DNA from: Magnetococcales bacterium
Lineage (GTDB): Bacteria; Pseudomonadota; Alphaproteobacteria; UBA2136
Direction of reading: 5' to 3'
Length of the DNA: 43,256 bases
NCBI GenBank assembly: GCA_002689455.1
Contig: NZGE01000042.1
Coordinates: 1-43,256, forward strand
Shown: in pieces, positions 539-37,169 of the stretch
How the letters are laid out: every line of letters starts with the position of its first letter
Position numbering within the stretch: the stretch's first letter is position 1
Notes under the pieces: model-generated
Database searches by the model: none
Told to the model about the DNA's origin: nothing
The model's input: only the letters and a program-made list of their open reading frames with translations
Position numbers and translations under genes: made by a program

Positions 539-3079
539 TTATTTTGCCTGAAGCTCTTCAATGAGTCGTGCTTGTTCCGCATTTTGCGCCTTAAGCTCAT
601 CTACTTCAGCTTTCAGCTCCTGCATGGCTTTCACCATTGGCGCAATCATGCCAATGTAGTTTACAGACTTTGTACCCATTTCATCGTCGGCTGTTTTAAC
701 CAATTCTGGATAAATATTTTCAAAGTCTTGCGCAATCACACCAAGCTCGGTCACCCCTGGGCGGTCCTTCATTTCAAAGCTTACAGCCTCCACTTGCCCC
801 ATGCGTTCAAGCGCACCATCTTCAATCGGTTGAATGTTTTGTTTCAAACGTCTGTCCGATGCATCAAGCAAGTTACCTGTGTATTGAATAGAACCTGAAA
901 CATCTAGTTCAACTGAAGGAGATGTTAAACCAATCCCCACTTCACCGCCAAGAATGGCCATGGTACGAGCATCTGTCACTGTTGTACCTGAAATGTCATT
1001 GTTTAAACCAATCACATAACTATAGTTCCCTTGGGCAATCACACCTTCACCAAAGGCAAAGGAAGTAATACCATTTGCTTGAGAGCCTCTACCCATTGCA
1101 ACCGACTGCGCACCACTTGCAATCGTTTGATAGTTCGTCGCTAAACTGTAATTATTTTTGGCTTCCGTTCCCATACCCAACGCAACAGATGTTACACCAG
1201 AGGCTCTTGCACCATTACCTACAGCAAAAGCTGAGTTTTGAGTTGCCGCTGTACTGCGACCAAGTGCGATTGAAAAGAGGTTAGATGCATAAGTTCCACT
1301 ACCAATGGCTATAGCATCAGAATTTAAAGCACGTGCACCATTACCCATGGCCACTGCGCGAGCACCTGTAGCTTCTGCACCATTACCAACTGCGAACGAA
1401 TCTGCTCCAGAAGCTGTTGAAGATAATCCCATTGCAATAGCACGGTCACCCGAAGCGATAACAGCATTACCAACACCTAAACTGTATTGCCCCACACTCG
1501 CTTCATCAGCTGAACCATTGTTTTGTGTTCCTAAACGCAAGGCCGTTTTATCTTGATGGTAAAACATACCAGCATCACCAAAGCTAAGGTCCCATGTTGT
1601 GCCTGTTTTGTACACACGAACACCTTCATAGTCGATGTAATCAGTGTTATTGGTCCACAAGCCACCTGCAACACCTGTTAAACCTGAACCATCACCCACA
1701 AATGCTGTAGCTGAAACGGTGCCTGTTACGTGTAAATCAGCTGTACCTGAAACACCATCTTCTGAAACAAGGAACGTATTCAAACCACTACGAGATAAAT
1801 ACACATCTCTAAAGCTTGAACCATCACCTATACCCAATTTACCGTCTGTATAAACCATAAAGCGTGCTGTCGATTCGCCTGAAGCAAGAATTCCAATAGC
1901 TTTACCATCACCCTCACCAGTACTTAACGGTAATTCACGCAGTGTTAATGCAGACGATTTTGTTAAGTTTGGTGCCGTTACTATTAAAGCGCTGCTTGTG
2001 TCATGAACTGTGATGCTCACACCACCCGCACCTCGAATAACCATATTTTCATATACGGTATTGTTTTGATCTCTTACTGTAAAGACAACCCCACCATCTG
2101 CCATATCATTATTAAAGTCCGTTTTTTCAACTACAAAAGCATCAAGGTTTGTCCCAAAATAATCTTTATTAACATACAAACGTGCACCGTCACTTAAAGG
2201 TGCGGCGGCGGATGGTGATTCACCAAAAAACCCAACTCCGTTTTCCTTAGGTACGCTAATACCACTTGAAACACTTAGTGATCCTGAAACATTTAAAGCA
2301 CCGTCTAGCGCTGTGATAAGCCTATTCCCATCCACATCGAAATGAATTTGACCTGTGCCTGCATCTACAATTGAAACGCTTGTGTCGCCTGCGGCAATGC
2401 TGTCGGATGAGCCGCCACCACCCATAGATGTCCAAGAAGTCGCATCACAATACATCACACCACCAGCTGCCGTGTAACGAATAGCACCTTCTGTGGAAGC
2501 ATTACAAGCTTCACCACCGTTTGAAATCATCAACGTTCCTGAAACGTCTAAAGCGGTTACAGGTTGTTTTGTTATAACACCCACTTTTCCGCTTTTATCA
2601 AGGTTTAATGCATTCACCCAGTCTGTTCCACCCCAGTATTGTAAACTAAATAAACCTGGATACAATGCATCACTGTGACCTCGAGCTGCCACCATCCAAG
2701 CACGGTTATCACCTGTTGGGTTACCACTGCCATAACCCTCTGAAGTATTTGCACGTAAAGTTCTAAATACAATATTACCAGCATATGACGTGCCTGGATT
2801 ATCATATTGACCCAATTGTAGTGTACCACTCACATCTAAAAAGCTTATATTTGGCTTGTTCCCATTAAGGTTTACACCCATACGACCATCTTTTTGAATA
2901 ATAACTTTTTCACTGCCGTCTACTTTTAAGGACATGGAGTCATCATCATTGTTTTTTGTCATAGATACTTGTGCTAAAGCAACTTGTGCCATAAGCATCA
3001 TAGCCATGGCGGTGAATGCCAGTTCATAACTTTTTTTCAAAAATGTAGATGTTCGGGTGGTTGCTTTAATGTTTGTCAT
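539..3079 (-). CDS. Secreted fibre protein with YadA-like head repeats and C-terminal S74 chaperone
   Basis: An 846-residue protein. The signal peptide probably cleaves after ALA36. Several DVSG/VTG modules follow, including the shared VSATAFVGDGSGLTG unit, and one CX18C module near residue 200. A long run of YadA-like head repeats of the type SxAxGxxAxAxG occupies roughly residues 520-700. The C-terminal 106 residues, beginning at Ser741 in SDRRLK, match the peptidase S74 intramolecular chaperone: Ser741/Lys746 dyad, LGVIAQDFENIYPE motif and a final coiled coil. In known S74 proteins this domain trimerises, folds the fibre and cuts itself off before the Ser. The ATG directly abuts the TAG of the upstream 1635-residue gene, so the two are probably translationally coupled. 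A secreted trimeric surface fibre is the likeliest reading; the ligand is unknown. No outer-membrane anchor barrel is visible. Confidence 0.85.
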   Translation of the reverse strand: MTNIKATTRTSTFLKKSYELAFTAMAMMLMAQVALAQVSMTKNNDDDSMSLKVDGSEKVIIQKDGRMGVNLNGNKPNISFLDVSGTLQLGQYDNPGTSYAGNIVFRTLRANTSEGYGSGNPTGDNRAWMVAARGHSDALYPGLFSLQYWGGTDWVNALNLDKSGKVGVITKQPVTALDVSGTLMISNGGEACNASTEGAIRYTAAGGVMYCDATSWTSMGGGGSSDSIAAGDTSVSIVDAGTGQIHFDVDGNRLITALDGALNVSGSLSVSSGISVPKENGVGFFGESPSAAAPLSDGARLYVNKDYFGTNLDAFVVEKTDFNNDMADGGVVFTVRDQNNTVYENMVIRGAGGVSITVHDTSSALIVTAPNLTKSSALTLRELPLSTGEGDGKAIGILASGESTARFMVYTDGKLGIGDGSSFRDVYLSRSGLNTFLVSEDGVSGTADLHVTGTVSATAFVGDGSGLTGVAGGLWTNNTDYIDYEGVRVYKTGTTWDLSFGDAGMFYHQDKTALRLGTQNNGSADEASVGQYSLGVGNAVIASGDRAIAMGLSSTASGADSFAVGNGAEATGARAVAMGNGARALNSDAIAIGSGTYASNLFSIALGRSTAATQNSAFAVGNGARASGVTSVALGMGTEAKNNYSLATNYQTIASGAQSVAMGRGSQANGITSFAFGEGVIAQGNYSYVIGLNNDISGTTVTDARTMAILGGEVGIGLTSPSVELDVSGSIQYTGNLLDASDRRLKQNIQPIEDGALERMGQVEAVSFEMKDRPGVTELGVIAQDFENIYPELVKTADDEMGTKSVNYIGMIAPMVKAMQELKAEVDELKAQNAEQARLIEELQAK

Positions 3080-6000
3080 CTATTTTTTCTCCATCAATGC
3101 ATCAATGAGTTGTTGTTGTTTTTCAATGATCGACTGTTGTTGATCCACTTTAGCATTCAGCTCTTTCACAGCTTCAATCAATGGTGAAACAAGGGCTGAA
3201 TAATTCACAGACATGTGACCTTCTTCACCATTCACCACTTGTGGATACACTTCTTTTACTTCCTGCGCTACAAGACCAATTTGAGGCGCTTGGGTTAAAC
3301 CTGTTTCAGGTTTGAAGTTATAACTTACACCTTTTAAGTTTAGCACGTTTTCAAGCGCACTTTCCAATGGATTGATGTTTTCCTTCAAGGATCTATCGGA
3401 ACTTGCAACAAATTCTGTTGCCTTCACGGTACCTGAAACTTCCAGTTCTGAGCTTGGTGAAACAGTACCAATACCAATATATCCGTCAGATGATATGCGT
3501 AGACGCTCTTGTAAATTACCACTATTTGTACCTGTATTTACAACAATAGCAGTTGGTAATACACCAGAACTGACCGTCCCATCAATAACAGCGTGAACTG
3601 TGGCTCCCATTTCCGTTTCTGCACCAAGAGATGTTGTGGTATGGCCAGCAAATCCTATACCCGGTAAATAGCTTCCTTCTAACATAGGAATAGGTGTTGT
3701 ATCAAAAACAGAATCCCTATTACCAATCATAACAACACCCAACATTCTTTTTAAGTCAGCTGTATTGTTATATCCAGCCACAGCCAAATGTAACACCCCT
3801 TCTTCTGTAGAAGGATCTGCTGTTCCAATATTCATTCGACCCGCATATGTTCCGCCAGTACTATGATTCACAATATAATTGTTTAAACCTCCACGCGCAT
3901 AAAACTTGTCATAGGTGGTGTTATACGCTAAAGGTGCTCCATCCATAACACCTGAATTATTAAATTGAAGTCGACCATCATTTCCCGCTGGCATTGCAAG
4001 TACATTTGTAAGGCTTGAACCATCCCCCACAAACGCTGTGGCTGAAACCGTGCCTAAAACTTCTAGCTCGGCGCTTGGTGAAACAATACCAATACCAACA
4101 CCACCAGTTGCACCCATAATGGCAAGGGTGTTTGTGTCTGTTATTTCTGTACCAGAAGCATCTGCACCTACGGATAGCATCATAGAATCATCACCTGAAA
4201 CCGTACCACCATAACCAAATACTGAAGAACGGCTACCTGATGTTTCAACACCATGACCAACTGCAATATTACGGAACCCTGTATTTGCCTTAGCGCCATA
4301 ACCCAATGCAAACACCTGCTCACCACTTTCAGCAATTGCCCCAGGACCAACAGCAAAAGCCGCATAATAACCTGTGCCACCCAAAGCTTTAGCGCCTGGA
4401 CCAAACGCTGTGTTACCAGGGCTGTTTGTTGCTTCAGCATTTACACCAATAGCCATTTTCCAACTATTACTTGAATTGGTCTTCGCTCCAAAACCTAAGG
4501 CTAAGTCACCGCTTCCTGCCGCAACCGTATTACCACTTCCACTTGGGGCACCCCAAGCAAAAGATGTTCCACCTGAAGCAGCTGCCCTCCCAAAAGCGGT
4601 TGAAAAATTACCTATATTCGCTTCATCCCAGTCACCGTAATTTACACGACCTGCACGAAAAGCACCTTTCTCTTCATCGAAGAAAGCAACTCTATCATCA
4701 TTATTCAAGTCAATTGTTGTGCCACTTACATAAACGCGGAAGCCATCACGCACAATGTAATCGCCTGCGTCTGTCCACAAACCTCCCACACCTGTTAATC
4801 CTGAACCGTCACCTACGAAAGCAGTTGCTGTTACAGTTCCTGAAACATCAAGTTTAGTTGAAGGTGTTTCAGTACCCATACCAATACGACCGTTGCTACC
4901 ATCAATCATCATATTCACACGTGACCAGTCACGTACAATCGTTTCGAAGAAAATATCTTCAGCGTAGTTGTTATTTGTCCGTTTCGTACCAAGGCGTAAG
5001 CTGTTTGCATCGGCATATACATTGGAATTGTCACCGTCCCCGCCGACACGTACAACACCTGCTTTGTAGCCGTTAGATGCAAGCAAACTACCTAGTAACA
5101 GGTCATTCGATTCGTCGCTCACAAAAATACCTCGGGATGAATTCTCTCTAAATTTAAAGCCAGGAACTTGATCTACGTTATACTCCATAACACGCGCACC
5201 ATCGACGTCAAACGCTAGAATAGCTGTATTACTATTATCATCAATAATTGAAATACTGGTGTCATTCAAAATAATACTTGAAGCGTCTGCCAAACCTGTA
5301 AGCTGTGAACCATCCCCAACAAACGCTGTGGCTGAAACGGTGCCGGAAACGTCAAGTTCGGCGTTTGGGCTCACCAATCCAATGCCAACACCACCACTTG
5401 CACCCATAATGGCAAGAGTGTCAGTGTCGGTTATTGTAGAGCCTGATGCCTCGTAACCAACACCAATACCCATCGAATTTCGACCAGTAACGTTCATTCC
5501 GTATCCAAATGCAGATACATAGTCACCAGATAAATTATTGTAGCTACCTACAGCAAATGATCGGTCAGCTTGAATGTTTCCTGAAGCTAAGCCGCCTGCG
5601 CTTGATACTGTATTGTCCCAGCCATAAGCCATTGACTTTGAACCTGTTACGTTATTTCCGTCACCAATTGTAATGTTGTGTCCGTAACTCGTTGTTCCTC
5701 CTGTAATAGTGTTGCGTGAACCGATTGCTACAGACTGTGAATTAGCGTTATTTCCAGTTCCCAGTGAAACCGAACGATCACCTGCAGATCCGCCATACCC
5801 GAAAACCATCGAATAACTGCCTGTTGCATTTGTATTGTGACCACCTGCAAACGAGCTTGAACCACTTGCTACTGTACCACTACCAAATGCAAAGGAGTTT
5901 CCACCTGAAGCAGATGCATTGTTACCTGAGCTTAAAGCAAAATCTCCTGAGGCCTTACTGCGCCCAAATGCAGCACTTGCATAACCAAGAGAGCTTTCAT

Positions 6001-7987
6001 CCCAAGTGTCGTACGTATGAACAATGCCGGCACGGAAAGCTGCCTTTTCTTCATGCCAGAATGCAGTGACGTCATTGCCACTAAAGTCAATAGTTGTTCC
6101 ACTTACATAAACGCGGAAGCCATCACGCACAATGTAATCGCCTGCGTCTGTCCAAAGTCCAGCAATGCCTGTTAACCCAGAACCATCACCCACAAACGCT
6201 GTGGCTGAAACGGTGCCTGAAACTTCTAAGCTTTCGGTTGCCGACGTTGTGTTGATTCCAATGATTGACTGACCTGTTGTATAAAGGTTAGAGCCGTAAA
6301 TAGCGTCACCAATGTTCAGTTGGTTCGAACCGGCCAAGTCCATCAATTGCGTACCATAACCAATGGCAATGTTATACTCGCCAGCGCTTTGCGCACTGGC
6401 AGCATTTTGCCCAATCGCAATACTGTAGTTACCAATATTATCACCTGCATTTCGACCAATGGCTACAGCACCACTACCAACACTAGAACCTGCACCTTCA
6501 CCAATCACAACGCTACTACCGCCTGCGTTTGTACCACTGCCGCGACCAATTGCAACAACATGTGTACCTGTGCTTGTACCTGCGTTATGACCAATGGCCA
6601 CACTGTCAAAACCTAAACTTGTACCAGCGCCACCACCAATGGCAACTGAACGGTCATTACCGTTTAACAAGGCGTTGTGTCCAATAGCCACACTTGAGTT
6701 ACGTGTAACCGAATTACCCATGGCATTGCGACCAATGGCTAGGTTTGCATTGCTTGTGCCATCATCCGCCGCACCTGCACCGCTACCAATGAAGATGCTT
6801 GAACCATCGTCCGCCGCATCGGTTAGGTCACCCAAAGCCAATGTTACAGAAGACGCTGTTACACCTGTAAGCTGGGAACCATCCCCCACAAACGCAGTTG
6901 CTGAAACCGTGCCTGAAACGTCTAATTCTGCATTAGCGGAAACCTGATTCACCGCCATCTGACCACCAATTACAGCTAGCGTATTGGTATCTGTTACATT
7001 CGTGCCGGTCACATCGCTTAAGCCTATCACCATAGAATTTAAACCTGAAACGGTTGCGTTTTGACCAATTGCAACTGAACGTGTCGCGTTTGCATTACTG
7101 TTTGGTGTTAACGCAACTGCATATGAAGCCGTTGAATTTGCATAACGTCCTAGCGCAACACCTCCATAACCTGTAGCGTTACTTAAAGGACCTAATGCAA
7201 CTGTAGCACCATTTCGAGCTTCAGCTCGGTGACCAATAGCAATTGCCTGAGTACCTGTTGCATATGCACCGCGCATGGCTGCCAATGAATAGTCCCCTGT
7301 TGCCCATGCACGCTGTAAAGCCATTGAATGTGCGCCCGAGGCACGTGTGTTAATAGAACCTGTATTCGAATCGGTTGGGATACCAGAATTCACATCACCA
7401 AAGTTCCCCAACGCAAATGAAAATGAACCATCTGAACGCGAACCTGAACCCAATGCTACGTTTGACGTTTGCGTTGCACGGGCGTATGTACCAAAGGCAA
7501 ATGTTCCATTGGCAGTTGCTTGTGTATCTCTCCCCATTGCAAAACTGTAATCACCAATCTGTCCATCATCAAAATTACCATACGGGTCTTGACCGATGCG
7601 CAGTGCAGATTTAGATTGATCGTATATAAAACCTCTAAAATTGCTTGGGACATCAATTGTTGTACCCGTTTTATAAATTCGAAAATCGTCATAGTGTATA
7701 TAATCGCCTGCGTCGGTCCAAATACTGGCCATACCTGTTAACCCTGAACCATCCCCTACAAACGCTGTGGCTGAAACCGTGCCTGAAACTTCTAAAGCTG
7801 CTGTACCGTTTACGAATAGGCCCGCATCACAAATAATATCTGTGCCGTCTGTGTAACAAAGTTCATTGTTGTTTAATGTGCCCACTGTACCAATATTCGC
7901 CCAGTTTTGAGCAAACACAGGGGATGCAAATAGAATTACACTTGGTAATATCAATAGCTTTTTAAGCATCTTATTAAGTTTAAACAA
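3080..7987 (-). CDS. Giant secreted fibre protein with multiple head modules and C-terminal S74 chaperone
   Basis: A 1635-residue protein, the largest in the window. TTG is chosen as start because AAGGG lies 7 bases upstream; the ATG at 7969 has a weaker site. The signal peptide probably ends at VFA26. The body repeats a fixed cassette: a VSGTVSATAFVGDGSGLTG unit, a cap with WTDAGDYI and GFRVY, YadA-like head repeats, then a TLAIMGATGGVGIG segment leading into the next unit. I count seven GDGS or derived units. The last 106 residues start at Ser1530 (SDRSLK) and form an S74 chaperone with the Ser/Lys dyad, IGLVAQEVKEVYP and a Gln-rich coiled coil. It lies 51 bases after the upstream fibre gene and abuts the next one. 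A self-processing trimeric fibre is inferred from the S74 and YadA families. It has no membrane anchor of the YadA type. Confidence 0.85.
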   Translation of the reverse strand: MFKLNKMLKKLLILPSVILFASPVFAQNWANIGTVGTLNNNELCYTDGTDIICDAGLFVNGTAALEVSGTVSATAFVGDGSGLTGMASIWTDAGDYIHYDDFRIYKTGTTIDVPSNFRGFIYDQSKSALRIGQDPYGNFDDGQIGDYSFAMGRDTQATANGTFAFGTYARATQTSNVALGSGSRSDGSFSFALGNFGDVNSGIPTDSNTGSINTRASGAHSMALQRAWATGDYSLAAMRGAYATGTQAIAIGHRAEARNGATVALGPLSNATGYGGVALGRYANSTASYAVALTPNSNANATRSVAIGQNATVSGLNSMVIGLSDVTGTNVTDTNTLAVIGGQMAVNQVSANAELDVSGTVSATAFVGDGSQLTGVTASSVTLALGDLTDAADDGSSIFIGSGAGAADDGTSNANLAIGRNAMGNSVTRNSSVAIGHNALLNGNDRSVAIGGGAGTSLGFDSVAIGHNAGTSTGTHVVAIGRGSGTNAGGSSVVIGEGAGSSVGSGAVAIGRNAGDNIGNYSIAIGQNAASAQSAGEYNIAIGYGTQLMDLAGSNQLNIGDAIYGSNLYTTGQSIIGINTTSATESLEVSGTVSATAFVGDGSGLTGIAGLWTDAGDYIVRDGFRVYVSGTTIDFSGNDVTAFWHEEKAAFRAGIVHTYDTWDESSLGYASAAFGRSKASGDFALSSGNNASASGGNSFAFGSGTVASGSSSFAGGHNTNATGSYSMVFGYGGSAGDRSVSLGTGNNANSQSVAIGSRNTITGGTTSYGHNITIGDGNNVTGSKSMAYGWDNTVSSAGGLASGNIQADRSFAVGSYNNLSGDYVSAFGYGMNVTGRNSMGIGVGYEASGSTITDTDTLAIMGASGGVGIGLVSPNAELDVSGTVSATAFVGDGSQLTGLADASSIILNDTSISIIDDNSNTAILAFDVDGARVMEYNVDQVPGFKFRENSSRGIFVSDESNDLLLGSLLASNGYKAGVVRVGGDGDNSNVYADANSLRLGTKRTNNNYAEDIFFETIVRDWSRVNMMIDGSNGRIGMGTETPSTKLDVSGTVTATAFVGDGSGLTGVGGLWTDAGDYIVRDGFRVYVSGTTIDLNNDDRVAFFDEEKGAFRAGRVNYGDWDEANIGNFSTAFGRAAASGGTSFAWGAPSGSGNTVAAGSGDLALGFGAKTNSSNSWKMAIGVNAEATNSPGNTAFGPGAKALGGTGYYAAFAVGPGAIAESGEQVFALGYGAKANTGFRNIAVGHGVETSGSRSSVFGYGGTVSGDDSMMLSVGADASGTEITDTNTLAIMGATGGVGIGIVSPSAELEVLGTVSATAFVGDGSSLTNVLAMPAGNDGRLQFNNSGVMDGAPLAYNTTYDKFYARGGLNNYIVNHSTGGTYAGRMNIGTADPSTEEGVLHLAVAGYNNTADLKRMLGVVMIGNRDSVFDTTPIPMLEGSYLPGIGFAGHTTTSLGAETEMGATVHAVIDGTVSSGVLPTAIVVNTGTNSGNLQERLRISSDGYIGIGTVSPSSELEVSGTVKATEFVASSDRSLKENINPLESALENVLNLKGVSYNFKPETGLTQAPQIGLVAQEVKEVYPQVVNGEEGHMSVNYSALVSPLIEAVKELNAKVDQQQSIIEKQQQLIDALMEKK
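4722..4777. repeat. 56-bp direct repeat, copy 1, in the 1635-residue fibre gene
   Basis: This stretch is identical to 6099-6154 and encodes the cap segment with WTDAGDYIVRDGFRVY. The two copies lie 1377 bases apart in the same frame, so recombination between them would delete 459 codons without shifting the frame. Confidence 0.85.
6099..6154. repeat. 56-bp direct repeat, copy 2, in the 1635-residue fibre gene
   Basis: This is the second copy of the repeat at 4722-4777, identical over 56 bases. It is the longest exact repeat I noticed among many shorter near-identical GDGSGLTG-encoding units in the fibre genes. Confidence 0.85.
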
Positions 7988-8038
7988 TGTTTTACCCTTA
8001 ATTATTAAACGTTACACACACAAATTTATTTCATCAAT

Positions 8039-11000
8039 TTACGGTCGGCAGTATTGTAAACGACCTATCGCTGGGTTAAAGCGGATTGTACCTTTTGCCG
8101 CAGCATCACAGGTTTCAGAACCTGTACCAGAAAGTTTAAACGTACCCGAAACCTCCGCAGCACCTGTTTGCACAGTCATCATGCGGCTTCCATCCACATC
8201 TAAGTGAATTTCACCTACACCACTGTCAACAACCGACACGCTGGTATCATTTTGAGAGATTGATGCCGTATCAATGCTCAAGTTTGTTAAACCAGAACCG
8301 TCACCTACAAATGCTGTAGCAGAAACCGTTCCTGAAACTTCCAGTGATTCTGTTGGCACTTCAACATTAATACCTATTTTCGCAATAGCTGACTGGCTAA
8401 TATCCGCACCGTAAATAGCATTACCAATGTTTAACTGATTAGAACCTGTTGGAACCTGTGCTTTTGTTCCACTACCAATCATAATATTGTTACTACCTGT
8501 TGTGATATTTGAACCAGAACTACTACCCATAGCAACGTTTTGACTACCTGTGGTGTTATTTGTCAAACTACGTTGACCCATTGCTGTATTTGAAGCGCCA
8601 CCTAGATTATTATACAATGCATAGTAACCAAACGCAGAGTTATATGAACCTGTTGATTTAGATAAAGAATCTGAACCAAACGCACTGTTTTGACTGCCGT
8701 TGTTATTATTTCTTAATGAATGTTTACCAGTTGCAGTGTTACCAAAACCGCTTACATTGTTTTCCATAGATAAATAACCAATAGCTGTGTTTTCACTACC
8801 ATTGGATGAACCATCAACTGAACCTAAAGCATTTAAGCCAATACCAATGTTGCGGTTATTACTTCCATCGTCATTTACACCTGCACCTTGTCCAATGAAT
8901 AGCGAAGAGTATGTATCATCTACACGGTGAATAACACCTACAACATTCGTTAGAGAAACCGAACCAGCTGTTACACCTGTTAACTGTGAACCGTCACCAA
9001 TAAACGCATTCGCCTGAATGTTGCCTGTTGCTGTAACATCTGTTACGTCTATGCGACCTGCAACATCTAAGTCACCTGTGCTGAAGATGCTAGCAGCTGA
9101 CACTTCATTACCTGTAATGTTGTTAAACACCACATCATCGGTTGTGGCAACACCTTGGTCCATTGCACCTACGTAACCAAACTGTGTTGCACTGATGGTT
9201 GTGCCATCGATGTTTTGCAATTGAGTCAGCTCTGCAACGTCCAACGCTGTGTTTGAAATGTTATCCACACCTGTCGGTATATTCGTTAATCCGTACCAAT
9301 CAGCACTTGAAGCCGTTACACCTGTTAACTGAGAACCGTCACCCACAAAGGATGTTGCAGAAATTTGGCCAGAAGCTTCCATGCCACCGCCTGCGAAAAT
9401 AACACCGTCAATGGTTTGCGTACCACTTACGTTAAGCGCACCTAGAACCGTTAACGTTCCACCAAATACACCGTCACCTGTTACACTTACGTCACCCGTT
9501 ACACTAACATCGGCAAATGTTACACCGTCGGTTGTTGCCACACCTTGATCCATTGCACCTAAGTACCCAAACTGCGTTGCACTGATGGTTGTACCATCGA
9601 TATTCTGTAGTTGAGTAAGCTCTGCTGTATCTAGCGCTGTGTTACTAATATTATCCACACCTGTTGGGATATCACTTAAACCATACCAAGACAGCGCACC
9701 TGCTGTAATACCAGCCCATGATGTTCCATCACAAACCTCCAAGCTGCCGCTGAAATAGCGTAAACCACCTTCTGTTGAAGCGTCACAAGTTTCGCCACCG
9801 TTGGAAATGATAATAGAGCCTGAAACATCCAAAGCCGCATTCGGCGAAACTGTGCCGATACCGACACCACCTGTTGCACCCATGATGGCCATGGTATTTG
9901 CATCAGTTAAATTACTACCAACGTTACCATTACCAACAGAAAGAACCATAGAGTCAGTACCCGTCACACGTCCGTTGCGACCAAATGCGTACGAATGACT
10001 GCCAGATGCAACGCTTGCATTACCAATTGCGACTGCATTCACGCCTGACGCCCTTGATCTTGCAAAAGCCACAGCACCTTGAGCACTAGCCTCCGTTTTA
10101 TCACCTGGAGCTGAACCGTTAATACCACCGCCGTTTGATCCAGAGCCAATTGCGACAGAGTAAGGTTGACTTGCCTCTGCAAGGCTACCCAACGCTACTG
10201 ATCCATCGCCATCTGCTCGTGCATATTGCCCACCTAGCGCAACTGAGCTAGCACCACTTGCACGTACATAATCACCCCAACCAAAACTGTATAAGCCAAC
10301 ATTTGAATCATCCCAGTCATTAAACTCATTTTGACCACCACGCATAGCTTTTTTATCTGGGTCGTAATAGGCCAGCTTGTTTGTGTGGTTGACATTAATA
10401 GAAGTACCCGGGTCGTATACCCTGAAACCGTTTACTCCACCTCTTGAAATATAATTGCCCGCATCTGTCCACAAACCGTTGTCTGCAATATTCACACAAG
10501 AAAAACTGGTGCCGTCATAACGCAGCACTTCACCTGCGCCACACACAGCGTTGCCTTTGTTGACAAAACCTGAACCATTGTACACCACAAGGTCGTGGTT
10601 GGCTGGCGTTGTAATAGAGACATCTGAAAGGTCATTGAACGCAAGGCCGTCCGCTGCGGAACCGGCATCGGCCACACAAGATAAACTTGTACCGTCAGAT
10701 GTTAAAATATGGTCGGCCGCACAAGTTGGAATTGGGTTTTCGTTACGTGCAAAAGCTTGCACATTCGGGTCTGTTTCATCTTGGTTAACCCAAGTACCAC
10801 CTACAAACGCCAACACTTGGTTGTTGGTAGGCGCTGTTAAAGAAACATCAGAAAGAGTGCCTAAAGCGAAAGGATCGGCTGCACCACCAGCATCGGCCAC
10901 ACACTCAAGTGTTGTACCGTTATAGGTTAAGTTGTAACCTGCATCACACTGCCCACCTGTTAAGTTCGCAATTGGGTTTACAATTTTAGCCCAATCACTC

Positions 11001-12016
11001 ACAGTTAAGTCACGTTCGGCATCTGCCTTCCAGTATGTACCATCAAAGTATAAGATATTTGTAGCTGTTGCAGCTGTTGTACCAGAAACGTCGGCCATAT
11101 CTTCTAAAATTAAGGCATCGCCAGGGCCACCAATATCAGCCACACAAGAAAACTGTGTACCGTCATATTTTAAAACTTCACCCAATTGGCAAGAGCCGTC
11201 AGTTGTGTTTTGAATTGGAAGTTTAGACCAGTTTTCAACAACCTGACCTGCTGACCAGCTTGTACCATTAAAGTAAAGTAGGTCTTGCGCTGCTGGTAAT
11301 CCAACGTTTACGTCAGACAAGTCATTTAAAATAAGTGTACCAGCCGCAATTGTATCCAATGAGATACAACGCAGTGTTGAACCGTCTGCAATTAAAACTT
11401 CACCACCACCACAAGATGCCAATGTACCACCCTTACGTGCAAAGTCACGCACACCGTTTACCACAGCATCATCAATCGCAACATCTAACTCAAGGTCAGA
11501 ACTTGGTTTGTCTTGGTTACAAACAATTTGACCGCCACTTTCAGCACACCATTTACCAGAAACAAGCGCACCCACTGAAGGGTCTGCCTCTTCAACACAA
11601 GTCCATCCAGAATTTGTCCATGTCAGTTTTTCTTCTTCTTTACATGTTGGAGCATCTGACAGAGCGTGCGACTTAACAGATTTACCGTCAATAATAACTT
11701 CTCCAGAAACAAGGATATCGCCCGTTAAGGCAACCTGACCTTCTTGGTCAATTCTAAAGGTAGAAATACAACCACTTGTATCGGCTTTAGCATGTTTAGT
11801 GCCATTACCACCTTTACCATAAATATAGCCAAGCGCCGCACAATTGTCGCGTTCATCAGCGCGAGAGCGGAGCTCACTAATCTGGGATTCATGTTTAGCG
11901 TTCGCTGTATCACCGCGGCTACCACCCGAAAGCGTGAAGAATCGTTGCTGCGCTGCAGCATCGATTGCTGTTGTTACACTTAGAATGCTAAGCCCTAAGA
12001 GGATAAGTAATCTCAT
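8039..12016 (-). CDS. Giant cysteine-rich secreted fibre protein lacking an S74 domain
   Basis: About 1325 residues. The ATG at 12016 is preferred over an upstream GTG at 12058 because it starts a clean signal peptide (MRLLILLGLS, cleavage after AAA22). An N-terminal region of about 500 residues holds six copies of a CX14C unit (for example CGAGEVLRYDGTSFSC), alternating with LSDV...YNGTxW segments. Then come a WTDAGNYI cap and YadA-like head repeats, a CX17C module, and two near-identical 130-residue blocks containing IPTGVDNISNTALD. A second head-repeat array of the type NTAxGxxSLxxNxxG precedes a last GDGSGLTN unit. The C-terminus stops at GRLQYCRP, inside what in other copies is a cysteine module followed by DGTSW. 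No S74 chaperone is present. It is the first gene of the operon. Function is unknown; a surface stalk or adhesin is inferred. Confidence 0.8.
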   Translation of the reverse strand: MRLLILLGLSILSVTTAIDAAAQQRFFTLSGGSRGDTANAKHESQISELRSRADERDNCAALGYIYGKGGNGTKHAKADTSGCISTFRIDQEGQVALTGDILVSGEVIIDGKSVKSHALSDAPTCKEEEKLTWTNSGWTCVEEADPSVGALVSGKWCAESGGQIVCNQDKPSSDLELDVAIDDAVVNGVRDFARKGGTLASCGGGEVLIADGSTLRCISLDTIAAGTLILNDLSDVNVGLPAAQDLLYFNGTSWSAGQVVENWSKLPIQNTTDGSCQLGEVLKYDGTQFSCVADIGGPGDALILEDMADVSGTTAATATNILYFDGTYWKADAERDLTVSDWAKIVNPIANLTGGQCDAGYNLTYNGTTLECVADAGGAADPFALGTLSDVSLTAPTNNQVLAFVGGTWVNQDETDPNVQAFARNENPIPTCAADHILTSDGTSLSCVADAGSAADGLAFNDLSDVSITTPANHDLVVYNGSGFVNKGNAVCGAGEVLRYDGTSFSCVNIADNGLWTDAGNYISRGGVNGFRVYDPGTSINVNHTNKLAYYDPDKKAMRGGQNEFNDWDDSNVGLYSFGWGDYVRASGASSVALGGQYARADGDGSVALGSLAEASQPYSVAIGSGSNGGGINGSAPGDKTEASAQGAVAFARSRASGVNAVAIGNASVASGSHSYAFGRNGRVTGTDSMVLSVGNGNVGSNLTDANTMAIMGATGGVGIGTVSPNAALDVSGSIIISNGGETCDASTEGGLRYFSGSLEVCDGTSWAGITAGALSWYGLSDIPTGVDNISNTALDTAELTQLQNIDGTTISATQFGYLGAMDQGVATTDGVTFADVSVTGDVSVTGDGVFGGTLTVLGALNVSGTQTIDGVIFAGGGMEASGQISATSFVGDGSQLTGVTASSADWYGLTNIPTGVDNISNTALDVAELTQLQNIDGTTISATQFGYVGAMDQGVATTDDVVFNNITGNEVSAASIFSTGDLDVAGRIDVTDVTATGNIQANAFIGDGSQLTGVTAGSVSLTNVVGVIHRVDDTYSSLFIGQGAGVNDDGSNNRNIGIGLNALGSVDGSSNGSENTAIGYLSMENNVSGFGNTATGKHSLRNNNNGSQNSAFGSDSLSKSTGSYNSAFGYYALYNNLGGASNTAMGQRSLTNNTTGSQNVAMGSSSGSNITTGSNNIMIGSGTKAQVPTGSNQLNIGNAIYGADISQSAIAKIGINVEVPTESLEVSGTVSATAFVGDGSGLTNLSIDTASISQNDTSVSVVDSGVGEIHLDVDGSRMMTVQTGAAEVSGTFKLSGTGSETCDAAAKGTIRFNPAIGRLQYCRP
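9139..9298. repeat. 160-bp internal direct repeat, copy 1
   Basis: Nearly identical to 9529-9688, offset 390 bases (130 codons). It encodes the block with IPTGVDNISNTALD, AELTQLQNIDGTTISATQFG and GAMDQGVATTD. It reflects an in-frame duplication within the first fibre gene. Confidence 0.85.
9529..9688. repeat. 160-bp internal direct repeat, copy 2
   Basis: Partner of 9139-9298. The two copies differ by scattered, mostly synonymous bases, so the duplication is not brand new, but the protein sequence is almost unchanged. Confidence 0.85.
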
Positions 12017-12064
12017 AATAAATCGTACCCTTGTTTCATATATATAAATATCGCACACTTCTCT

Positions 12065-12457: not shown

Positions 12458-12554
12458 GCGCATTATTTCATCTCATTTACATTAAAACTTGAATTTACAA
12501 CAAACAAAGCCATATTATTATTTATTAATTGTTTAATTCAAAAGGGTGTTGAAT

Positions 12555-13202
12555 ATGACAAGCACAGCCAAAAAAGTCGTTACAATTTCACGTTCTCGTA
12601 AACAGAAAGAGCAAGACATCTTAGCGTCAGCCGCTAAAATTTTTGTGCGCGATGGTTTTGAAAAAGCCCATATGGATGAAATTGCACACGAAGCAAATGT
12701 TTCCAAGCAAACCATATATTCAAACTTTGGCTCAAAAGAAAACCTATTCAACGAAATTGTTTCCGACATTTTTAAAGATTTACAAAAAGAGAATATCAAA
12801 GACCCTGAATTTAACTGCCCTGTAGAAACTCTAAAAACATACTTAGAACGTTTGATGACACCGCTCTATTCTAAAAAAGGCGTGGCACTGTACAGGCTAG
12901 CTATTTCAGAAGGGCAACATAACCACAAGCTCAGCCAAATTTTCATTTCACGTATTGAACGCGGTATTACAAGGCTTGCAACAGTCTTAGAAAAGCTAAG
13001 TGACAAAGGGTTTATTCAAATTGATGACAGCCATGAAGAAGCCCATAATTTAATATACCAATGCAAGGGTTTAGCGCATTCAAAACTTCTATGCGGTTTC
13101 GATAAAAGCATTTCAAAGGAAGAAGTTGAATTTTTAGCCAAAAAAAACGCCCTCCAATTCCTTGAGAGCCACGGTTACGACACGTCAGGTAATGCAAAAT
13201 AA
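12555..13202 (+). CDS. TetR/AcrR-family transcriptional regulator
   Basis: A 215-residue protein. ATG at 12555 is preferred to GTG at 12546 because AAAGGG lies 8 bases upstream. Residues about 15-65 form the TetR DNA-binding domain, with ILASAAKIFVRDGFEKAHMD, then the helix-turn-helix in IAHEANVSKQTIYSNFGSKE. The C-terminal ligand and dimer domain is generic and gives no inducer. A basic N-terminal tail (SRSRKQKEQD) precedes the domain. TetR proteins usually repress a neighbouring gene. Here the neighbours are tRNA-Leu upstream and hslO downstream, so the target is unclear. The palindrome ahead of the fibre operon 480 bases away is one possible site, but that is speculation. Confidence 0.85.
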   Translation: MTSTAKKVVTISRSRKQKEQDILASAAKIFVRDGFEKAHMDEIAHEANVSKQTIYSNFGSKENLFNEIVSDIFKDLQKENIKDPEFNCPVETLKTYLERLMTPLYSKKGVALYRLAISEGQHNHKLSQIFISRIERGITRLATVLEKLSDKGFIQIDDSHEEAHNLIYQCKGLAHSKLLCGFDKSISKEEVEFLAKKNALQFLESHGYDTSGNAK

Positions 13203-13241
13203 CATCCCCCACTAGACAAACAAGCTATTTTGACGTAAAAA

Positions 13242-13265
13242 ACCCCTGTTAAAGGAAAAAGGGGT
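13242..13265 (+). promoter_or_regulatory. Hairpin covering the hslO ribosome binding site
   Basis: ACCCC (13242-13246) can pair with GGGGT (13261-13265), which contains the purine run AAGGGG that sits 9 bases before the hslO ATG. Flanking A and T runs could extend the stem. A second purine run, AAAGGA, lies in the loop. Because the stem is followed by a T run it may also be the terminator of the TetR gene. Which role applies cannot be decided from sequence alone. Confidence 0.45.
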
Positions 13266-13273
13266 ACGTTTTT

Positions 13274-14176
13274 ATGAAAGAAATTATATCAAAAGCATCT
13301 GGGTTTATTCAGCCTTTTGTGTTTGATAACATGCCTATTCGTGGCATGGTTTTGCGTATTGAAAACCTTTATGAACATATTCCAAGTTTAAAACAAACAC
13401 CAAAATCCATCCAAAAGTCGTTGGTGGAAATGTTGGCAGCCAGCGCTGTGTTAACGGCGGACCTTAAAAATAAAAGCAATGTAACATTGCAGGTTCAATC
13501 CACAGGGGATATCCCTCTCATGGTTGCAGGTTGTGATAAAACTGGCAATTTACGTGCGTTTGCCCGCTTAGACGAAAATGCTGACCCTGAAAAATTATCC
13601 TACGATTCACTCGTGCAAGAAGATAACACCATTTTTGCTGTTTCTGTTGAACAAGGTGAAAACAAAAATCGCCACGTTTACCAAAGCTTTGTTGGGTTAA
13701 ACAAAACATCTGTCAGTAGTTCAGTTGAACAATATTTTAACGACTCCGTTCAGTTAAACACATATTTTAAAGTAAACGTTGGTGAAGTGGACGGCAAACT
13801 ATGCTGTGCATGCATTTTCCTACAAGCTTTACCACAAGAAGAACATAACATGGACGACTGGCAACGCTTAGCCATGATCTTAAGCACCATGACCGATTCT
13901 GAGTTCTTACCTGGTGAAATTAGCGAACAGGAGCTGCTGGTGCGCTTATTTGCCGAAGATAAAGTCCGCATTCATGACAAAACATATTTAAACTTTTCCA
14001 CACCTAAAACACGAGAACGCATGGAGATTGCCTTAAAAAGCCTGGGTGAAGACCAATGCAAAGACCTGTTAAAAGAAGGCCCAATTGTAATGACATGTGA
14101 ATTTACTGGCAGTGAAGAAGAATTCACTGAAAATGACATTTCTGGCATTTTTGATACAGAGGACAGTTCAAATTAA
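13274..14176 (+). CDS. hslO: Hsp33-family chaperone missing most zinc-switch cysteines
   Basis: A 300-residue protein, normal length for Hsp33. The N-terminal substrate-binding domain is well conserved (residues 45-105, LVEMLAASAVLTADLKNKS and TGDIPLMVAGCD). Hsp33 is normally a cytoplasmic holdase activated by oxidation of four zinc-bound cysteines in a CXC...CXXC arrangement at the C-terminus. Here the CXC position reads FSTPKTRERM (residues 241-250) and the CXXC position reads TCEFTGSEE, so only Cys275 of the four remains. Other cysteines exist (Cys87, the CCAC cluster 177-180, Cys262) but not in the canonical places. The fold is probably intact; redox control by the usual zinc centre is unlikely. 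It stands between tetR and a lipoprotein gene, on the same strand as both. Confidence 0.9.
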   Translation: MKEIISKASGFIQPFVFDNMPIRGMVLRIENLYEHIPSLKQTPKSIQKSLVEMLAASAVLTADLKNKSNVTLQVQSTGDIPLMVAGCDKTGNLRAFARLDENADPEKLSYDSLVQEDNTIFAVSVEQGENKNRHVYQSFVGLNKTSVSSSVEQYFNDSVQLNTYFKVNVGEVDGKLCCACIFLQALPQEEHNMDDWQRLAMILSTMTDSEFLPGEISEQELLVRLFAEDKVRIHDKTYLNFSTPKTRERMEIALKSLGEDQCKDLLKEGPIVMTCEFTGSEEEFTENDISGIFDTEDSSN

Positions 14177-14278: not shown

Positions 14279-14743
14279 ATGAAACTATTTTCACGTAGCT
14301 TAACAGCAATGATGTGCGCAGCGGTTATCACAGGTTGTGCAGGCCCACTTGGCGGTACATACAAAACACCCGATGTCACAAAAATTAACGACAAAGGCGA
14401 AAAGCAAGTTTTAACCGACACAAAACTTTTCGAATCGGGCGTTATTCGTTCTTTTCCTGATATTGCCATTCCATCCACACATAAAATTGACCTTGATAAA
14501 AGTGTGATCTTCACAAGCCCAACACAAACAGTGGGTAAAATTACACTTTCTGGCGGTGGCGACCCTGACAGCTTATACCGTTTCTTTGAAGAACAAATGA
14601 CAGCGAACGGCTGGAGCATGGTAAACGCTTTCCAATCGGCAACATCTAGCATGTATTACGCAAAACCTGGTAAGTTTGTAGCGATTATTATTGAATCCAC
14701 ACAAACAGGAAGCCGTGTTTACATTAACATTGGCCCAGAGTGA
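14279..14743 (+). CDS. Small outer-membrane-type lipoprotein of unknown function
   Basis: A 154-residue protein starting at the ATG at 14279, which gives a proper lipoprotein signal (MKLFSRSLTA...) with lipobox ITGC and lipidated Cys20. Longer upstream starts would spoil the signal. The mature protein has a central segment FPDIAIPSTHKIDLDKSVIF and a domain with LSGGGDPDSLYRFFEEQMTANGW and IESTQTGSRVYI. This resembles small lipoprotein domains I have seen in other proteobacteria in which a 'FYxxxMxxNGW' helix precedes a beta sheet, but I cannot name a family with confidence. It lies 102 bases after hslO and ends before a bidirectional terminator. The stop is TGA. Confidence 0.75.
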   Translation: MKLFSRSLTAMMCAAVITGCAGPLGGTYKTPDVTKINDKGEKQVLTDTKLFESGVIRSFPDIAIPSTHKIDLDKSVIFTSPTQTVGKITLSGGGDPDSLYRFFEEQMTANGWSMVNAFQSATSSMYYAKPGKFVAIIIESTQTGSRVYINIGPE

Positions 14744-24547: not shown

Positions 24548-26089
24548 ATGGTTAGAGGGAAAATAGACGAGGCTATTCGTTTGAATTACAAATTCGATAC
24601 GCAAAATTACAAACAGAATGTGCAGGAATTACGTGCAGGTACTGCGCTGGAAAACCCTGTTTTTATTCAGTTTATGCGTGAACGTGCCTTGCATGACTTT
24701 GGTATTGAAAGTGCTTATATTGTTGATTTAACGCTCTTCCCTGCTGAAAAAATCCAAGAAAACAAAAATGTTGGCAACAAAACGATGCCTTATTCAAAAC
24801 ACCTTGTGGGTGTTTTAAATGATGACATTATAAAACAAAACAAAGCTATTACAGGTGATGAAACACCTGATATTGACCTAAACGGCAACCCTTTAGGCAT
24901 GCGTGCTTCATTACAAAAAGAGTATGCAAAGCAAAATACTTTACAAGATTCTGTCCTTAAAATGATTGAAATGGAAAGGCCTTCAGCTCATTATTTCACC
25001 CACGAAGACAAACCACAAACTGTCATTGTGCCACAAATGGGAAACTACAGCACACATTTCACCCTTTCTGAGCGGACAGGATGGAATGAAGAAGATTTCA
25101 AATTTGTAAATATAAACAACAGCAACGATGATTTAACAACCGCAGATCATGAAGTGGGACACGCCATTTTAAATGAACACCTTCAAGGTAAAAGACCGTT
25201 AGAAAACTTAGATAACGAAGATTACTCGATTCATATTCACGAATGCGTCGGCGACGCAGTTGCTGCTTTTTCCGCTATTCATGATGGGCAAACCAAAGAT
25301 GTATTCGATATTTTATCTCTAGAAAGAGCATACGGTGGCTTAGTCCATAAAGATGCAGCCCACTTTACCTGTGCCACATTACAACACCTCAAAGAAACTG
25401 TAAGCACAGAAGAAATTCAAAACCTTGAAAGCAAAAAAGATGTTGCTGCCCTTGCTTTACAACATGTTTTAGGTGATGCTGAAAAAGGTATCAAACCTGC
25501 CTTTTTATCGGAAAGTGCATTTGAAAAACAAAGTGAGATTATTCATGGTTTACATGAACGTTTAAAAGTAGCTGTGAATGAAAAAAACTTACCCATACCA
25601 ACACCTCTTCAATTTGAAGAAATGATTAAAGAAGGTCTGTTTCAAGAAGAAGATATTGCCTTTTTAAACCGCTATGTCACACACCACAAAGACACTATTG
25701 TTCACAAACATGATGTCATACTAGGGTTAGATACAAATGAACGCTTTCATGAAGCAGGCCTTGCCCACGATGACGATACTTTTTATGATATTGCATTTGA
25801 AGAAGATATTTCAGAATTTGAAGAAGCCTTACGTGATGAAATTTTCCCTGTAAATGAAGAAGGCTTTTTAATTCAGCTTTCCTTAGAAGAACGTATGCAT
25901 ACCTTAAAAACATATGAGAGAAGCCTTGGGAATTTAAACGAAGATGAAGCAGCTTCACTGCATAAATATAAAGAACACCTTCAAGAAGAAATGACATATC
26001 AAGAAGAACTTAAAACACTTCGAGAAAAGGAAGTTTCGCCACACTACGTTCAGCCAAATCAAAATGAACAAGAACGTGATATGTTTTAA
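24548..26089 (+). CDS. Unrecognised cytoplasmic protein with a HEXXH metallopeptidase-like motif
   Basis: A 513-residue protein with no signal peptide or membrane segment. I do not recognise the family. Residues 201-205 read HEVGH within TTADHEVGHAILNEHL, and 27 residues after His205 comes Glu232 in HIHECVGDAVAAF. This HEXXH plus downstream ExxxDA helix resembles the zinc site of gluzincin peptidases. The preceding region (115-170) is unremarkable; the C-terminal 150 residues are very rich in Glu and Asp and probably helical, including EEDISEFEEALRDEIFP. No clear ribosome site precedes the ATG, so the start is uncertain. It lies 95 bases after pepN, across a terminator, and 52 bases before serB on the same strand. 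A protease role is inference. Confidence 0.65.
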   Translation: MVRGKIDEAIRLNYKFDTQNYKQNVQELRAGTALENPVFIQFMRERALHDFGIESAYIVDLTLFPAEKIQENKNVGNKTMPYSKHLVGVLNDDIIKQNKAITGDETPDIDLNGNPLGMRASLQKEYAKQNTLQDSVLKMIEMERPSAHYFTHEDKPQTVIVPQMGNYSTHFTLSERTGWNEEDFKFVNINNSNDDLTTADHEVGHAILNEHLQGKRPLENLDNEDYSIHIHECVGDAVAAFSAIHDGQTKDVFDILSLERAYGGLVHKDAAHFTCATLQHLKETVSTEEIQNLESKKDVAALALQHVLGDAEKGIKPAFLSESAFEKQSEIIHGLHERLKVAVNEKNLPIPTPLQFEEMIKEGLFQEEDIAFLNRYVTHHKDTIVHKHDVILGLDTNERFHEAGLAHDDDTFYDIAFEEDISEFEEALRDEIFPVNEEGFLIQLSLEERMHTLKTYERSLGNLNEDEAASLHKYKEHLQEEMTYQEELKTLREKEVSPHYVQPNQNEQERDMF

Positions 26090-29137: not shown

Positions 29138-29662
29138 ATGGAATTTTGGTGGATACAGGCATTAGGTTTTATAGCATTTATCATATCTGTTTGCTCATAC
29201 CAGTTTAAAAGTCAAAAAACCATGTACGGTATTCGTATTTTTAACGATAATATATGGGCTATCCATTATTATTTATTAGATGCCCCAATCGCCGCTTTAA
29301 GTTTATTTATTTCACTGATACGTGCATTCCTTTCTATATTCGTGTGGCCACAATATAAAGCTTATTTTATTATAGTTGGGCTCGTTTTAATATGTGGACT
29401 TACCTTTTATAAAACAACAGGTATTTGGCATGAATACTTACCTTTATTTTCCGCCATTATTTTTAGTTTAGCCGTTTATTACCATGACCAATATAAACTA
29501 AACCGGATTTTAATGTTTTTAGGTGCAACAACTTGGCTGATTATTGGTTTTTTCAACCACTCGTACCCTGATATGATAAGCTCAAGTGTAAACATGGTCT
29601 CTATCGCTATTGCATATTGCAGACATATGAAGCCAGTAACTCCCATAAAGCCACACAATTAA
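29138..29662 (+). CDS. YgjV-family inner membrane protein, copy 1
   Basis: A 174-residue integral membrane protein with about six short hydrophobic segments. The N-terminus MEFWWIQALGFIAFIIS and the patterns SYQFKSQKTMYGIRI and WAIHYYLLDAPIAAL match the Imp-YgjV family (PF10688), whose function is unknown. It starts 9 bases after serC and is probably cotranscribed. The next gene is a paralogue of identical length. Members of this family sometimes accompany transport or amino acid genes, but no role can be assigned here. Confidence 0.85.
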   Translation: MEFWWIQALGFIAFIISVCSYQFKSQKTMYGIRIFNDNIWAIHYYLLDAPIAALSLFISLIRAFLSIFVWPQYKAYFIIVGLVLICGLTFYKTTGIWHEYLPLFSAIIFSLAVYYHDQYKLNRILMFLGATTWLIIGFFNHSYPDMISSSVNMVSIAIAYCRHMKPVTPIKPHN

Positions 29663-29724
29663 TTAGAGAAATAAAAACCAAATTTGTTAAACTGCGATTA
29701 AATAAAACATAGAAAGTTTATTGC

Positions 29725-30249
29725 ATGGAATTTTGGTGGATACAACTTGTTGGTTTTCTTGCTTTTGCTATTTCAAGTTTTTCTTACCAATTTAAAGATC
29801 AAAAAACCATGTTTGGCTATCGTGTTTTTTCAGATGCTTTATGGGCTTTTCATTACTTTTTACTAGGAGCATCCGTTCCAGCACTTACAGTTATGATAGC
29901 TGTGTTACGTTCAGGATTAGCCGTTTTTGCATTCCCAAAACATAAGCTTACAATCATTATTTTATCCATCTTTGCTGTCTGGTTGATTTGTTTTTATCTT
30001 GGGAAAAGCGGATGGCAAAGCTATTTACCTTTATTAGGATCTATTATTTATGGTACTTCAACCTATTACTATGATAATTATACAATAAGCCGTATTTTAA
30101 TGGCTTTAGGGTTTGTGGTTTGGGTGTGTATTGGGTTTCTTTTTAATTCATATGCTGAAATCATCAGCTCATCTATCGGATTTATTTCAATTTTAATCGG
30201 ATTTTACCGCCATAAACGTATCAAAAAATTACCCCAGCCACATGCTTAA
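29725..30249 (+). CDS. YgjV-family inner membrane protein, copy 2
   Basis: A 174-residue paralogue of the gene just upstream, starting 62 bases after it. The first 20 bases of the two genes are identical, then they diverge strongly while keeping the same pattern: SYQFKDQKTMFGYRVF, WAFHYFLLGASVPALTV and SSSIGFISILIGFYRHKR. This indicates an old tandem duplication with both copies kept intact. It ends with a weak AACCC/GGGTT hairpin at 30248-30261 before tRNA-Ser. Confidence 0.85.
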   Translation: MEFWWIQLVGFLAFAISSFSYQFKDQKTMFGYRVFSDALWAFHYFLLGASVPALTVMIAVLRSGLAVFAFPKHKLTIIILSIFAVWLICFYLGKSGWQSYLPLLGSIIYGTSTYYYDNYTISRILMALGFVVWVCIGFLFNSYAEIISSSIGFISILIGFYRHKRIKKLPQPHA

Positions 30250-35989: not shown

Positions 35990-36163
35990 TTAGTGTTCAA
36001 TTCCCATAGCAACTCTGATTATTTGTGCCATTATAAAAACAGCCATAAAACCAGAACACCAGAGAAACACAAACCAAAACCATTGTTGTTTTGCTTTAGA
36101 TAACCCTTGGAACCATGCCACAATGTTACCTTTAAACATTTCAATTTTAGTACATTGGTTCAT
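35990..36163 (-). CDS. Small cyd-operon membrane protein (DUF2474-like)
   Basis: A 57-residue single-pass membrane protein. The start at 36163 has AAAGGA about 10 bases upstream and overlaps the end of cydB by 17 bases. A basic amphipathic start leads to LSKAKQQWFWFVFLWCSGFM and a membrane helix. Position and pattern match the DUF2474 proteins that follow cyanide-insensitive oxidase genes, functionally comparable to CydX of E. coli, which stabilises the bd oxidase. A subunit role is inferred from position. Confidence 0.75.
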   Translation of the reverse strand: MNQCTKIEMFKGNIVAWFQGLSKAKQQWFWFVFLWCSGFMAVFIMAQIIRVAMGIEH

Positions 36164-37169
36164 CAGTACTTTTTCCTTTAAATACATAATAACAGTAAGC
36201 TGTATAAGCCAAAATAATTGGCAACATAATCACTGTACCAATCAACACAATACTTTGTGATGTTGAAACAGCCGCAGCTTCCCATAATGTGAATTTAAAC
36301 GGTACAATCCAAGGGTACAAGCTAATGCAAATACCAAGGTAGCCTAGCAAAAAGATAAGTGCTGTTAATAAAAACGGACGAATTTCACGTTTGTTATTAC
36401 CAAAGTCTTTCCACAGCATATAAAACGCAACCATTGTTAAGGCTGGAATAATAGCCAAGAAAAAGATGTTTGGAGTACTAAACCAAAGCGCCTTAATACG
36501 CGCATCAATAAATGGCATTGTAATGCTAATAACCACCATGGCTAAAATAACATAAGCGAAAACATAGCGCCCCATTTTACGTGCCCATTTTTGTGTAGCA
36601 CCTTCTGTTTTCATCACCAACCAAGCCGCCGCTAAAAGCGAGTAACCAGCAACAACACCTAAACCAGTGAGAACAGCAAAACCGTTCGCCCAGTCTAAAG
36701 CGCCACCAGAAAAACTACGGCCTGTTACTTCAAAGCCTTGAATAATGTTCCCTAAAATCATCCCTTGCATAAAGGCTGCAAGTAAGGACCCAGCATGGAA
36801 TGAAACGTCCCACATTTTGCGGTTCTTATCAGAAGCTTTAAAACGGAACTCAAAAGCAACCCCACGGAAAATAAGCCCAAACAACATCATAGTAGCTGGA
36901 ATATAAACCGCTGGTAACAAAATGCTATAAGCAACAGGGAATGCCACAAGCAAACCACCTGTTCCTAAAACAAGCCATGTTTCATTACCATCCCAAAATG
37001 GTGCGATAGAGTTCATCATTTCATTACGCGATTTATCGGACGGTGCGAATGGGAATAAAATGCCACATCCAAGGTCAAAACCATCTAGCAAAGCGTATAA
37101 AAATACAGCTGTCGCAATAAGACCACCCCAAATTAATGGCAGGTCAAGAAAGTTTGAAAAGTCGATCAT
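36147..37169 (-). CDS. cydB: Cytochrome bd-type quinol oxidase subunit II
   Basis: A 340-residue inner-membrane protein with about eight to nine helices. DLPLIWGGLIATAVFLYALLDGFDLGCGIL at the start and FWDGNETWLVLGTGGLLVAFP are diagnostic of CydB/CioB. It partners subunit I to oxidise quinol and reduce oxygen without pumping protons. It overlaps cydA by four bases (ATGA), the standard arrangement. The shape of subunit I suggests the cyanide-insensitive (Cio) branch. Confidence 0.95.
   Translation of the reverse strand: MIDFSNFLDLPLIWGGLIATAVFLYALLDGFDLGCGILFPFAPSDKSRNEMMNSIAPFWDGNETWLVLGTGGLLVAFPVAYSILLPAVYIPATMMLFGLIFRGVAFEFRFKASDKNRKMWDVSFHAGSLLAAFMQGMILGNIIQGFEVTGRSFSGGALDWANGFAVLTGLGVVAGYSLLAAAWLVMKTEGATQKWARKMGRYVFAYVILAMVVISITMPFIDARIKALWFSTPNIFFLAIIPALTMVAFYMLWKDFGNNKREIRPFLLTALIFLLGYLGICISLYPWIVPFKFTLWEAAAVSTSQSIVLIGTVIMLPIILAYTAYCYYVFKGKSTDEPMY

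Follow-up and report, generated by a model that had tools for sequence, protein, structure and literature searches.

The locus described here lies in a stretch of 43,256 nucleotides, which was analysed as a whole and is called the window. Positions 13274-14176 encode a 300-residue protein of the Hsp33 family, the only Hsp33 copy in its genome assembly (1.6 Mb, 86% complete). Hsp33 is a standard example of an oxidation-activated protein. The reading frame is open and intact, and the product matches Pfam PF01430 with 168 bits (cut-off 21.4) over positions 3-272 of the 273 positions of the profile. In an earlier note on this DNA, the protein apart from its redox switch was described as well-conserved Hsp33. 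This wording was generous: identity to E. coli Hsp33 amounts to 27-28% (Foldseek), and with 160.3 bits the protein stays under the 244-bit cut-off of the NCBIfam HslO equivalog NF001033. By sequence and predicted fold it is an Hsp33 family member outside the redox-regulated HslO, the defining cysteines of which are absent. The gene and its relevant parts are as follows.

13274-14176, + strand: Hsp33 (hslO-like) gene with lost redox switch, 300 aa, PF01430 match, AF2 model
13802-13813, + strand: CCAC, residues 177-180, proposed earlier as a candidate alternative regulator
13832-13987, + strand: linker, residues 187-238, which in E. coli Hsp33 forms the metastable switch for client binding
13988-14155, + strand: C-terminal domain, residues 239-294, the former zinc/redox-switch domain
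14000-14008, + strand: former CXC site, now T243-P244-K245, by alignment with E. coli Hsp33 and relatives from the class
14057-14059, + strand: Cys262, a clade cysteine (10/20 members) where canonical Hsp33 mostly has a hydrophobic residue
14096-14107, + strand: C275-E-F-T278 in place of the former CXXC site, with the invariant G279 directly after it, by alignment

The earlier note had reported that three of the four redox-switch cysteines are gone and only Cys275 is left, and had placed this loss at 13994-14110, which corresponds to residues F241-G279. Alignment with E. coli Hsp33 (PDB 1i7f) proves it right. CTC of the E. coli protein aligns with T243-P-K245 and CDYC with C275-E-F-T278, and the four zinc-ligand positions of the window protein are occupied by T243, K245, C275 and T278. 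A shift of the cysteines into another register is ruled out by a scan for the motif C.C(20-45)C..C, which is found in none of the clade Hsp33s and in every complete outside Hsp33 checked. Sequencing error is likewise excluded, given the open frame and 19 further genomes with the same loss, i.e. 20 in total.

Alignment with relatives, suggested earlier as a way to recognise a clade trait, reveals a trait at the level of the order and in fact of two orders. The 18 genomes of the window's order yielded 15 Hsp33s, none of them with the CXC/CXXC motif (the congener UBA2136, present twice as L032 and L036 with one and the same contig, was counted once). In a survey of the class comprising 385 genomes, 262 of them with Hsp33, weak scorers were inspected, and four further cysteine-less Hsp33s were found in families f64, f149 and f173, all belonging to one second order. 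A fifth comes from family f241 of that order. Altogether, 20 of 20 clade Hsp33s from nine families are without the switch (CXC...CXXC in 0/20); five keep one cysteine, and the 15 others have lost all four. Families f1, f3 and f4 retain the third cysteine (TCEFTG). In families f2 and f6 it is replaced by Asp (TDxTTG and similar), and 15/20 clade members carry Asp at position 275. Position 278 is always T or S across the clade and position 243 is unconstrained.

Outside the clade, none of the complete Hsp33s inspected lacks any of the four cysteines. This count rests on about 99 sequences, which for the members of the class are a subset of the 262 hits: 30 sequences, 22 weak scorers, 30 from other classes of the phylum, and the 21 nearest to the clade profile (17 new genomes). 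A profile built from the clade and run against the 385 genomes of the class scores members with 355-409 bits and anything else with at most 199, so that a clade member overlooked within the sampled genomes is unlikely. A low Hsp33 score is no general sign of switch loss: f191, a low-scoring group in another class, keeps all four cysteines, and L083-L106 (f191 and neighbours in that other class) retain them in spite of strong divergence from other Hsp33s (E about 1e-35 to 1e-47). Remnants of Hsp33, i.e. fragments or frames with internal stops, were seen in other alphaproteobacterial families (L075 of G244, L076 of G141, and G051:C15:15298-15722), which suggests gene loss there.

In a tree of 16 concatenated ribosomal proteins the two orders form one group with a long stem (UFBoot 100); the deep nodes within the clade have supports of 47-66 and the relations there are less certain. 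In the tree of the Hsp33 N-domain and linker the same group is monophyletic with support 1.0. Since the ribosomal-protein tree unites both orders with full support, the simplest and most likely account would be a single loss of cysteines 1, 2 and 4 on their common stem. The third cysteine is kept in f1, f3 and f4, with Asp in the second order and in f2 and f6, and on the ribosomal tree its history would comprise either two or more C-to-D changes, or a single one together with reversals.

Regarding selection, dN/dS is low in all three regions of the clade Hsp33. Where computable, it is 0.04-0.35 for the C-terminal domain, close to the N-domain values, and these figures are rough with dS near saturation. 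Mean pairwise identity within the clade is 0.41 for the N-domain, 0.44 for the linker and 0.41 for the C-terminal domain, as compared to 0.44, 0.38 and 0.35 in canonical Hsp33s of the class, the last value despite four fixed cysteines in that domain. By these identities, constraint on the former sensor domain is at least as strong as in ordinary Hsp33, and that on the linker is stronger; within the clade the linker is also the best conserved region of the three. Invariant in 20/20 members are D194-D195-W196, R198, E210, F226 and D229 of the linker and M250, A253, G279 and F284 of the C-terminal domain. At 250, 253 and 279 canonical Hsp33s carry other, variable residues; M250, A253 and G279 are therefore clade-specific. 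Judged by these substitution patterns, purifying selection acts on the former zinc domain and the protein is not decaying. That the switch cysteines were lost with a functional protein retained is in our opinion close to certain. From the conservation of the linker we infer that the protein may still exert holdase activity on unfolded clients.

AF2 models were made from clade sequences only, for the window protein with its one cysteine and for a member without switch cysteines. They reach pLDDT 90 and 92, respectively, and both contain the helices and the hairpin of the C-terminal domain. The best full-length structure matches of both are B. subtilis 1vzy and T. maritima 1vq0 (TM 0.69-0.75). 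Superposition of the window model on these two gives TM 0.71-0.75 over about 290 columns, with a predicted N-domain, linker and C-terminal domain. Besides the tail, the least confident part of its C-terminal domain is the old CXC segment (block 241-250, 78). AF2 knows Hsp33 structures; the models thus speak for compatibility with the fold rather than for stability, and for a protein closed at rest they are weak evidence.

Concerning the surroundings of the gene, the following features lie in the window.

539-12058, - strand: three consecutive long repetitive proteins (846, 1635 and 1339 aa) with YadA-head repeats
12546-13202, + strand: TetR-family regulator (PF00440 and PF14246) upstream of Hsp33
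About 13234-13275: hairpin ACCCC...GGGGT immediately upstream of Hsp33, its loop holding the ribosome-binding site
14279-14743, + strand: uncharacterised lipoprotein gene directly downstream of Hsp33, no match in Pfam and NCBIfam searches
36147-38563: cytochrome bd-like pair

The lipoprotein gene adjoins Hsp33 in 12 of the 20 clade loci, in both orders, and in none of the non-clade Hsp33 loci compared; as some clade loci stop short of where this neighbour would lie, 12 is a lower bound. Remote relatives of the lipoprotein occur in many alphaproteobacteria and are located apart from Hsp33 in the genomes compared by contig. The gene order TetR-Hsp33-lipoprotein is retained in UBA2136, and the TetR neighbour is common only to that congener. 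The hairpin was considered as an RNA thermometer and rejected: its z value is -2.2 in the window but -0.2 in the congener, where the hairpin is not kept. Anaerobic life as the cause of switch loss is ruled out by heme-copper oxidases, which 21 of the 22 clade genomes encode, and by the bd-like pair; because these oxidases are present, the bacteria of the clade meet oxygen. Among the three proteins at 539-12058, two end in a Peptidase_S74 endosialidase chaperone and VSATAFVGDGSGLTG-like repeats are common to them, which is consistent with a putative cluster of adhesins or tail-fibre-like proteins; the genome is a small one. Elsewhere in the window, a tandem Imp-YgjV inner membrane protein pair, apparently a duplication, lies at 29138-30249, and the 513-aa protein encoded at 24548-26089 has no Pfam match but contains HEVGH, a metalloprotease-like motif (DHEVGHAILNEH).

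In reduced Hsp33 the linker is docked; oxidation of the cysteines leads to release of zinc and to unfolding of the C-terminal domain and then of the linker, by which the client sites are exposed (PMC4735815, PMC8614738). In the clade proteins the oxidation step would be impossible at the zinc centre, and oxidant-driven zinc release could not serve as switch. Due to the loss of the ligands, zinc binding and oxidant activation of the window protein are very unlikely. We propose that the C-terminal domain persisted and was remodelled into a fold without zinc, in which the zinc knuckle CxxC would have become a [C/D]-x-x-[T/S]-G turn and F241, M250 and A253 would form a fixed hydrophobic core. Such an Hsp33 would still be a holdase, with its client-binding linker covered as long as the C-terminal domain is folded. 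Melting of domain and linker would expose this surface, leaving heat or unfolding as the only trigger. Control by heat or unfolding had been among the suggestions of the earlier note, beside constitutive activity, and both are plausible. In favour of the former, E. coli Hsp33 becomes active without oxidation, and tunable by temperature, through a mutation that destabilises its linker (PMC4735815), and Caulobacter CnoX is an alphaproteobacterial holdase that acts independently of oxidants and guards against heat aggregation (PMC6282202). A chaperone gated by melting appears the most economical reading since linker and domain are both under selection. To a zinc-free Hsp33 gated clade-wide by temperature or unfolding alone, the sensor domain of which is selected for a non-redox job, we assign a probability of about 0.5; this figure and the grading of the alternatives are judgements and were not computed.

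Alternatively, the C-terminal domain without zinc might leave the linker uncovered, and the protein would be a constitutive holdase that binds clients at all times and is controlled through its expression. Mutants of E. coli Hsp33 with a destabilised linker are constitutively active (PMC4735815). Moreover, CnoX of Caulobacter is a constitutive holdase, as opposed to E. coli CnoX, which requires HOCl (PMC6282202). A dedicated TetR gene upstream of Hsp33 in the window genus would fit with control by expression, but TetR does not adjoin Hsp33 in other families. Constitutive activity does not follow from cysteine loss, because release of zinc alone is insufficient to activate E. coli Hsp33 (PMC10598452) and it is unfolding of the linker that does so (PMC4735815). 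Furthermore, strong selection on the C-terminal domain and the predicted closed fold suggest that clamping persists; a clamp without use would be expected to erode or to be lost. We consider a constitutive holdase a serious but less probable alternative.

Of similar likelihood is a protein locked in the closed form which has abandoned the holdase role and binds and unfolds EF-Tu (for Lon), thereby slowing translation under heat stress. EF-Tu is indeed bound and unfolded by reduced Hsp33, on condition that the redox-switch domain is folded (PMC8614738). A folded domain free of zinc would hold the reduced-like state permanently, and the C-terminal domain is both conserved and predicted to be folded. 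Against this stands the linker, which is exposed for the holdase role and is the very region that the clade conserves most.

A replacement thiol switch, in which C87, C262 with C275, or the CCAC at 177-180 would now sense redox, appears improbable. C87 (15/20) and C262 (10/20) are enriched in the clade and unusual at those sites in canonical Hsp33, and some thiol chemistry may take place. Still, none of the cysteine pairs is kept throughout the clade, Cys262 lacks consistent pairing with Cys275, C87 lies within a strand of the N-domain in the AF2 model, and the entire open frame of several f2 members contains two or three cysteines. The CCAC had been read correctly at residues 177-180 and put forward as substitute regulator. 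This role does not hold up for the clade: C177 is restricted to the window genus, and C178 and C180 are likewise unconserved. A replacement metal site is ruled out too, since with position 278 always T or S and position 243 unconstrained there is no consistent set of ligands. Finally, a decaying gene or an assembly or sequencing artefact is hardly credible; broken Hsp33 remnants (G051, G141) in other lineages of the class do tell that gene loss occurs, but here the frame is open, dN/dS is low in all three regions, the state is common to 20 genomes of nine families and synteny with UBA2136 is kept.

In a study of 1579 Hsp33 sequences the four cysteines were fully conserved, apart from fewer than 10 sequences without the second one (PMC7423844), and they have been termed "fully" or "absolutely" conserved (PMC7423844, PMC4735815). 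We found no earlier description of a cysteine-less Hsp33 clade in the open-access literature. A textbook redox-controlled protein probably works without redox control in two related alphaproteobacterial orders, and the annotation "redox-regulated Hsp33" would be wrong for the clade genes. An oxygen-respiring clade that keeps Hsp33 without the switch is a natural experiment, which can separate the C-terminal domain as redox sensor from the C-terminal domain as fold (clamp, unfolding sensor or EF-Tu binder). It bears directly on the question connected with CnoX (PMC6282202), whether Hsp33 is tailored to lifestyle as well.

With canonical Hsp33/HslO (E. coli 1i7f, 1hw7, 3m7m; B. subtilis 1vzy; T. 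maritima 1vq0) the clade proteins share the three-part architecture, a predicted full-length fold match, the conserved linker motif and PF01430. They differ in the absence of CXC and CXXC, and hence of the Cys4 zinc site, in their own core M250, A253 and G279, and, for the window protein, in a score below the HslO cut-off. The Hsp33s that are without the second cysteine (PMC7423844) are natural departures from Cys4, too. These exceptions concern one cysteine in a handful of sequences, whereas the clade misses three or four throughout two orders. E. coli Hsp33 M172S and related linker mutants (PMC4735815) resemble the proposed melting-gated protein in being uncoupled from oxidation and tuned by temperature via the linker; M172S, however, is a laboratory mutant with an intact zinc centre, and it is in the zinc centre that the natural change of the clade lies. 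Caulobacter CnoX, which guards against heat aggregation (PMC6282202), is likewise an alphaproteobacterial holdase that needs no oxidant and sets a precedent for redox control tailored to lifestyle, even though it belongs to the unrelated thioredoxin-TPR family and its change has been attributed to surface hydrophobicity and not to loss of a zinc centre.
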